Part shown: positions 19,417 to 20,002 of the stretch, piece by piece
Position numbering within the stretch: position 1 is the stretch's first letter
How the letters are laid out: every line of letters begins with the position of its first letter
IMG/VR virus record: IMGVR_UViG_3300017917_002457
Coordinates: 1 to 20,002 of that record
Direction: 5' to 3' (one strand)
From: a virus
Length of the DNA stretch: 20,002 bases
The notes under the pieces: generated by a model
What the model was told of the DNA's origin: nothing
Databases searched by the model: none
The model's input: the letters and a program-made list of their open reading frames with translations, nothing else
Position numbers and translations under genes: made by a program

Positions 19417-19845
19417 ATGAAAGTTAAAGGCACTAAAACCGAACAAAATCTAAAAGATGCATTTGCAGGTGAATCAATGGCAAATCGTCGATATTTGTAT
19501 TTCGCAAATATGGCAGATGTTGAAGGTGCCCCAGAAGTAGCATCAGTATTTCGTAATACTGCTGAAGGTGAAACAGGACATGCTCACGGTCATATGGATT
19601 ATTTGAAGGAAGCAGGTGATCCGGCAACAGGGCATGCATTCAATACTGTACAACAAGCATTAGAATCAGCAATTGAAGGTGAGACTCACGAGTATACAGA
19701 TATGTATCCTGGAATGGCAAAAACTGCTAGAGATGAAGGATTCGATGAAATTGCTGATTGGTTTGAGACATTAGCAAAGGCAGAACGTAGTCATGCTGGC
19801 AAATTTAAGAAAACTTTGGATGCATATCTAAAAGACAATAGTTAA
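19417..19845 (+). CDS. Rubrerythrin (ferritin-like diiron domain only)
   Basis: A 142-residue protein. The four-helix diiron pattern is clear: E19 ([11 protein letters not shown]), E52 and H55 ([11 protein letters not shown]), E89 and E92 ([12 protein letters not shown]), E123 and H126 ([11 protein letters not shown]). The C-terminal rubredoxin-like [FeS4] domain of classical rubrerythrins is absent, so it is the short form. Family role: peroxide reduction and iron handling under oxidative stress. AAGGAGAT gives an excellent ribosome-binding site. A TATAAT at 19389-19394 lies upstream but its -35 (TAGCAA) is poor. A small hairpin AGTAT/ATACT (19362-19375) followed by T-rich sequence may end the upstream transcript. 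Confidence 0.9.
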
Positions 19846-19859
19846 TATATATTTTTATG

Positions 19860-20002
19860 GTTGTATGAAGCAAGCAGAAACGTGCTGCGGACGCGGGTTC
19901 GATTCCCGCCTGGTCCACCAGAAGTATATTGCACTTCACTGATAAGGAAGACTGGTCGGCTGTATTCAACTGGCTAGTGCAGTATACTTCTGATGGGCCA
20001 GA
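19860..20002 (+). ncRNA. ssrA: Circularly permuted (two-piece) tmRNA gene, cut by right edge
   Basis: tmRNA rescues stalled ribosomes, acting as alanyl-tRNA and as mRNA for a degradation tag. The 3' (acceptor) piece comes first: GCGGACGCGGG then TTCGATT then CCCGC is a 5-bp T stem (19893-19897 with 19905-19909) with 7-nt loop, then CTGGTCC (19910-19916), A and an encoded CCA (19918-19920). GGACGCGGGTTC is typical of tmRNA 3' ends. No matching 5' acceptor strand lies upstream. The partner GGGCCAG lies downstream at 19995-20001 and gives 7 bp, with the G-U at the third pair that alanyl-tRNA synthetase recognises. The order is therefore acceptor piece, spacer, coding piece, as in alphaproteobacteria, cyanobacteria and some betaproteobacteria. 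The exact 5' end and the tag-coding part are not visible. Confidence 0.8.
19919..19992 (+). other. Intervening-segment hairpin of the permuted tmRNA
   Basis: Bases 19919-19935 pair continuously with 19976-19992 (17 bp including one G-U; outer strand CAGAAGTATA with TATACTTCTG) around a 40-nt loop. The stem begins in the last two bases of the encoded CCA and ends three bases before the coding piece. It would bring the two tmRNA ends together in the precursor and is removed when the RNA is cut into two pieces. Confidence 0.7.

Follow-up and report, generated by a model that had tools for sequence, protein, structure and literature searches.

What is carried in the part of a two-piece tmRNA gene that does not reach the mature molecule? 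In permuted tmRNAs, the segment between the CCA end and the coding piece is removed on maturation, and the gene is usually read as one RNA plus a throw-away spacer. The question is raised by a virus record of 20,002 bases (hereafter the window, meaning the whole stretch analyzed). The contig is that of a T4-like phage, and a circularly permuted (two-piece) tmRNA gene begins at its right end (19859–20002). Comparison with other phage loci indicated that the 74-nt segment of this gene is no neutral spacer and that it is probably a portable structured small RNA, freed by tRNA processing.

All features of the gene lie on the plus strand. The acceptor piece (19859–19920), placed by the match to Rfam RF04321 and by the sequence, consists of the 5′ strand of P2, the T arm (GCGGG-TTCGATT-CCCGC, 19893–19909, from the sequence and the covariance model alignment), the acceptor 3′ strand CTGGTCC (19910–19916), the discriminator A (19917), and the encoded CCA (19918–19920). 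After the intervening segment (19921–19994), the coding piece starts with the acceptor 5′ strand GGGCCAG (19995–20001), exactly 74 nt after the CCA, and is cut by the contig end after one further A (19995–20002; sequence and RF04321 match). The order of a permuted tmRNA, with the acceptor 3′ strand and CCA (19910–19920) preceding the acceptor 5′ strand, was thereby observed directly, and GGGCCAG/CTGGTCC form seven pairs that include the alanine identity pair G3-U70. These elements, their spacing, and the G-U at the third pair had been reported in a preliminary description of the window and all were present. The contig ends just 3′ of the acceptor 5′ strand, and the tag region and the P2 partner positions fall beyond it; relatives with the same intervening segment have both.

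The model tmRNA_permuted (RF04321) matched 19859–20002 with 49.3 bits (E = 3.5e-7), above its gathering cut-off of 47, and the 3′ side of the match was cut by the contig end only. Of the covariance models suggested for a check in the same description, beta_tmRNA (RF01850) scored 37.1 bits in the window (E = 1.7e-8), short of the 84 bits of its own cut-off, and the alpha tmRNA model did not match. ARAGORN reported neither a tRNA nor a complete tmRNA in the window, as expected because the gene is truncated.

A 22-base exact-match probe that spans the CCA and the loop start recovered 21 contigs, nearly all of which encode a complete permuted tmRNA with the tag ANDDYFYQDLKLAA, ANDEVFALAA, ANDEKFALAA, or ANDEHFYQEFKLVA. 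Ten relatives matched RF04321 over its full length (107–126 bits), three of which also passed the betaproteobacterial model. The closest relative by acceptor piece (L224; 97% identical) has an identical loop and the tag ANDDYFYQDLKLAA. As relatives carry the complete gene and tag, the feature in the window belongs to the family and, apart from its truncation, is a normal example of it, and the original identification of a phage-encoded, circularly permuted, two-piece tmRNA holds. Recent capture of the gene from a host, as had been proposed, was not supported: the coding piece of one relative had no match among 399 genomes of the Cupriavidus order in a search run without a positive control, though the best older Rfam model for the tmRNAs of the relatives is the betaproteobacterial one. 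As a separate observation, matches that resemble permuted tmRNAs and have a similar loop end occur in Cupriavidus (L345–L356), several per strain and on both plasmids and chromosomes, with strain HN-2 having such matches at four places.

The odd part of the gene is the intervening segment, which the preliminary description missed. Across 17 distinct tmRNA genes, the 74-nt loop differed at no more than 2 positions, compared to a mean identity of 90% (minimum, 71%) for the acceptor pieces and 77% (minimum, 58%) for the coding pieces of the same genes. The loop is the most conserved part of the gene, though it is removed when the tmRNA matures. Between the window and five relatives (L203, L205, L208, L224, and L225), the four-fold degenerate sites of two flanking genes were 22–49% identical and the loop differed at 0 or 1 position (73–74 of 74 nt in common). 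Many loci in the loop comparison had been selected by the first 16 bases of the loop, a selection bias, though L203, L205, and L208 were selected through a search with a neighboring protein, independently of the loop, and had the same loop conservation. A search anchored solely on the last loop bases and the start of the coding piece again recovered this group of loops (family 1), along with other loop families. The module is dispensable for the tmRNA, as related phages (L207 and L201) carry a different segment in the slot and the loops of some phage tmRNAs are only 4–6 nt long. Reading the loop as a peptide (LHFTDKEDWSAVFNWLVQYTSDGPD) gave no meaningful phage match, and the invariance at the nucleotide level speaks against it.

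Within the segment, a 46-nt three-way-junction core (19933–19978; hairpins 19934–19950 and 19951–19978) is enclosed by an outer stem (5′ arm, 19921–19932; 3′ arm, 19979–19990), such that the module folds as two hairpins on a closing stem, with the outer stem supplying much of the folding energy. The core also occurs outside of tmRNA genes, in the tRNA arrays of 12 other phage contigs (L236, L237, and L364–L373): directly 5′ of a tRNA-Glu in L237, among tRNA genes in L236, and, with one base changed, inside large tRNA arrays in the remaining ten. The outer stems of these copies are unrelated in sequence yet paired, with perfect arms of 14–25 bp. In an alignment of ten copies, 9 of the 12 outer-stem pairs changed on both sides and 98.3% of cells were paired, a covariation score that none of 500 shuffles reached. 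The module is thus portable, with the same core found in tRNA arrays under different stems, and a conserved core within a covarying stem, seen in independent contexts, is what identifies a new structured-RNA family. Neither the intervening segment of the window (Rfam, including GOLLD and ROOL) nor those of 14 related loci matched an Rfam family, except for the tmRNA models themselves in the latter. No copy of family 1 was found among the sequenced phage isolates of INPHARED (one 21-nt match was at chance level), nor was there one of a second loop family, family 2, described below. Among the other fetched loci, there were no diverged family 1 members between the clear matches and noise, except for a copy in L274 cut by the contig end.

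The alternative that survives best, though it is judged unlikely, is that the locus is an ordinary permuted phage tmRNA and that homologous recombination between conserved tRNA-like flanks has recently spread an identical loop with no function of its own. The T arm, the CCA, and GGGCCAGACATGGTTTCGAC are conserved enough for recombination, almost every tmRNA copy of family 1 has the identical outer stem, and the related phages L201 and L207 have different loops in the slot. Further, family 1 has hardly any internal variation, too little to prove selection, and family 1 may therefore have moved recently by recombination within tmRNA genes. Against recent spread as the whole explanation, the acceptor and coding pieces that adjoin the loop are diverged, and the copies in tRNA arrays have the core in common and not the outer stem, which points to a core kept through an old separation. 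Family 2 also has compensatory changes inside the module. The reading as a portable module is preferred because the tmRNA and tRNA-array copies have entirely different stems around a core that persisted, and because the changes in family 2 keep its structure.

It is improbable that the loop is a mere aid to folding or processing, a long hairpin that joins the two acceptor strands for RNase P and 3′ processing. The outer stem does stack beside the acceptor stem, the RNA of 19859–20002 folds as a whole at z = −5.9, and outer stems of 7–15 bp are present in most of the loops that reach 40 nt. This would account for a stem, but not for an invariant 46-nt core, and the same core adjoins ordinary tRNAs that need no such help, while some phage tmRNAs make do with the 4–6 nt loops noted above. 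Insertion of a mobile DNA palindrome next to tRNA and tmRNA genes is highly improbable: inverted-repeat arms do flank a conserved center in several unrelated phage backgrounds, but the terminal arms are wholly different between contexts yet complementary, the opposite of a transposing palindrome. No mobility gene is known to accompany the module. For practical purposes, the relatives refute an assembly artefact, a host fragment, or an ordinary tRNA starting at GGGCCAGA, readings suggested by the position at the contig end, as in about 20 other contigs this junction leads into a tmRNA coding piece with a tag, and an exact 27-mer of the core had no match in a collection of 84,980 genomes of bacteria and archaea.

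The preferred reading takes the segment as a portable structured RNA, in which an outer stem that can be exchanged encloses a conserved three-way-junction core. As expected for the tmRNA family, host tRNA-processing enzymes would divide the tmRNA precursor into its acceptor and coding pieces. By the same analogy, the tmRNA would be charged with alanine through G3-U70 and would act with host SmpB in freeing stalled ribosomes and tagging the incomplete protein. Most likely, the modules would ride as small RNAs in tmRNA and tRNA transcripts and come free through processing of the CCA end before them and the 5′ end after them, so that the host tRNA-processing machinery would free an RNA with a role of its own. 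As a guess, this small RNA may pair directly with or bind an RNA or protein that the host uses in translation or RNA decay. If the spacer carries portable small RNAs, many unannotated phage RNAs may hide in tmRNA loops and in the gaps of tRNA arrays. There would then also be a reason for phages to keep the permuted gene order, and tRNA processing would be a route to small RNAs without a promoter or terminator of their own.

Other intervening segments were explored among the 141 permuted tmRNA genes in the fetched loci, of which 124 had loops of at least 40 nt (98 distinct). Several loop families recur next to different acceptor stems. In family 2, compensatory changes affect 6 of 26 pairs inside the module, and a copy is located just upstream of the tmRNA in L383, a gene with a different loop of its own. 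At least three other intervening-segment modules were also found outside tmRNA loops: the type of L308 just 5′ of the tmRNA in L318 and L256, the type of L271 between tRNA-Lys and tRNA-Pro in L286 and L332, and the type of L273 between two tRNA-Leu genes in L370. In L370 and L365, the stem of a module begins within the ACCA end of the tRNA itself. A few loops hold open reading frames instead. Tentatively, tmRNA loops and the spacers by tRNA genes in tRNA arrays could be interchangeable slots filled from a common repertoire, made up of small structured RNAs and in some cases of tiny proteins, and host tRNA-processing enzymes would free the inserts during infection.

Two candidates for stand-alone module copies (L328 and L314) were rejected, being located inside tmRNA genes. 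A 175-nt intervening segment occurs in the tmRNA of L369 (5049–5528, minus strand) and in L373 (2409–2888). This loop contains a 50-aa frame wholly inside it, starting just after the 5′ arm and stopping at the 3′ arm, for which PHROG had no match. Similar frames, some extending into the coding piece, are present in L285, L323, and L201.

The gene type is already known, and the conserved portable RNA in the removed segment is the new part. Comparable in kind, the small stable RNAs C and D of the phage T4 tRNA cluster are co-transcribed with the phage tRNAs and have no known function; they differ from the module in that they are not in a tmRNA loop. Two-piece tmRNAs of phages, held in the preliminary description to be little described, were published in 2022: that report described one in the OM43 phage Melnitz, counted 53 in publicly available genomes of phages, 50 of which were marine or aquatic, and found the gene in 17 of 47 Melnitz-like contigs (PMC9004378). 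A 2025 tmRNA database contains 79 bacteriophage tmRNA sequences of all forms (PMC11915505). Like the window, Melnitz and other aquatic phages show a permuted tmRNA borne by T4-like aquatic phages; for the ssrA region, the available text of the 2022 report describes a glutamine-riboswitch-like motif and no conserved or common intervening segment (PMC9004378). The window shares gene order, T arm, CCA, and G3-U70 with RF04321 and RF01850, to which the relatives add a tag and full-length model matches. It differs from them in the truncation of its gene and in having a conserved portable module, not a variable spacer, as its intervening segment. GOLLD and ROOL are likewise structured phage RNAs near tRNA islands, of unknown function (PMC12286853). 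They are large, with many GOLLD RNAs >800 nt, and constitute Rfam families of their own, whereas the modules here are about 40–114 nt inside the stem, occur in a tmRNA loop or a tRNA spacer, and have no Rfam match.

The genes neighboring the tmRNA encode a rubrerythrin (19417–19845), a PD-(D/E)XK nuclease, a chitinase-class (GH19) lysin-like protein, PhoH, a DNA ligase, and a T4-type RNase H, and they fit a T4-like phage. At the DNA level, the rubrerythrin gene has 74% identity to its counterpart in Pelagibacter phage Mosig. This gene is directly 5′ of the tmRNA in the window and seems to come and go, as the close relative L203 has no similar DNA at the same place. A conserved, structured-looking stretch (GATACCGCTGGTCGGTAACGTAGGTGAGAATCCTACATAGTG) is present just upstream of the tmRNA in L015, L017, and L021 and resembles tRNA-array inserts with a T-loop-like TGAGAAT. 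Runs of stem-closed modules were seen in phage tRNA arrays (L366, 2206–2743; L372, 83–501, reverse complement; L370, 1155–1666), and one stem, CATATTGAAATGCA/TGCATTTCAATATG, encloses at least two inserts that are unrelated to each other (L365 compared to L372).
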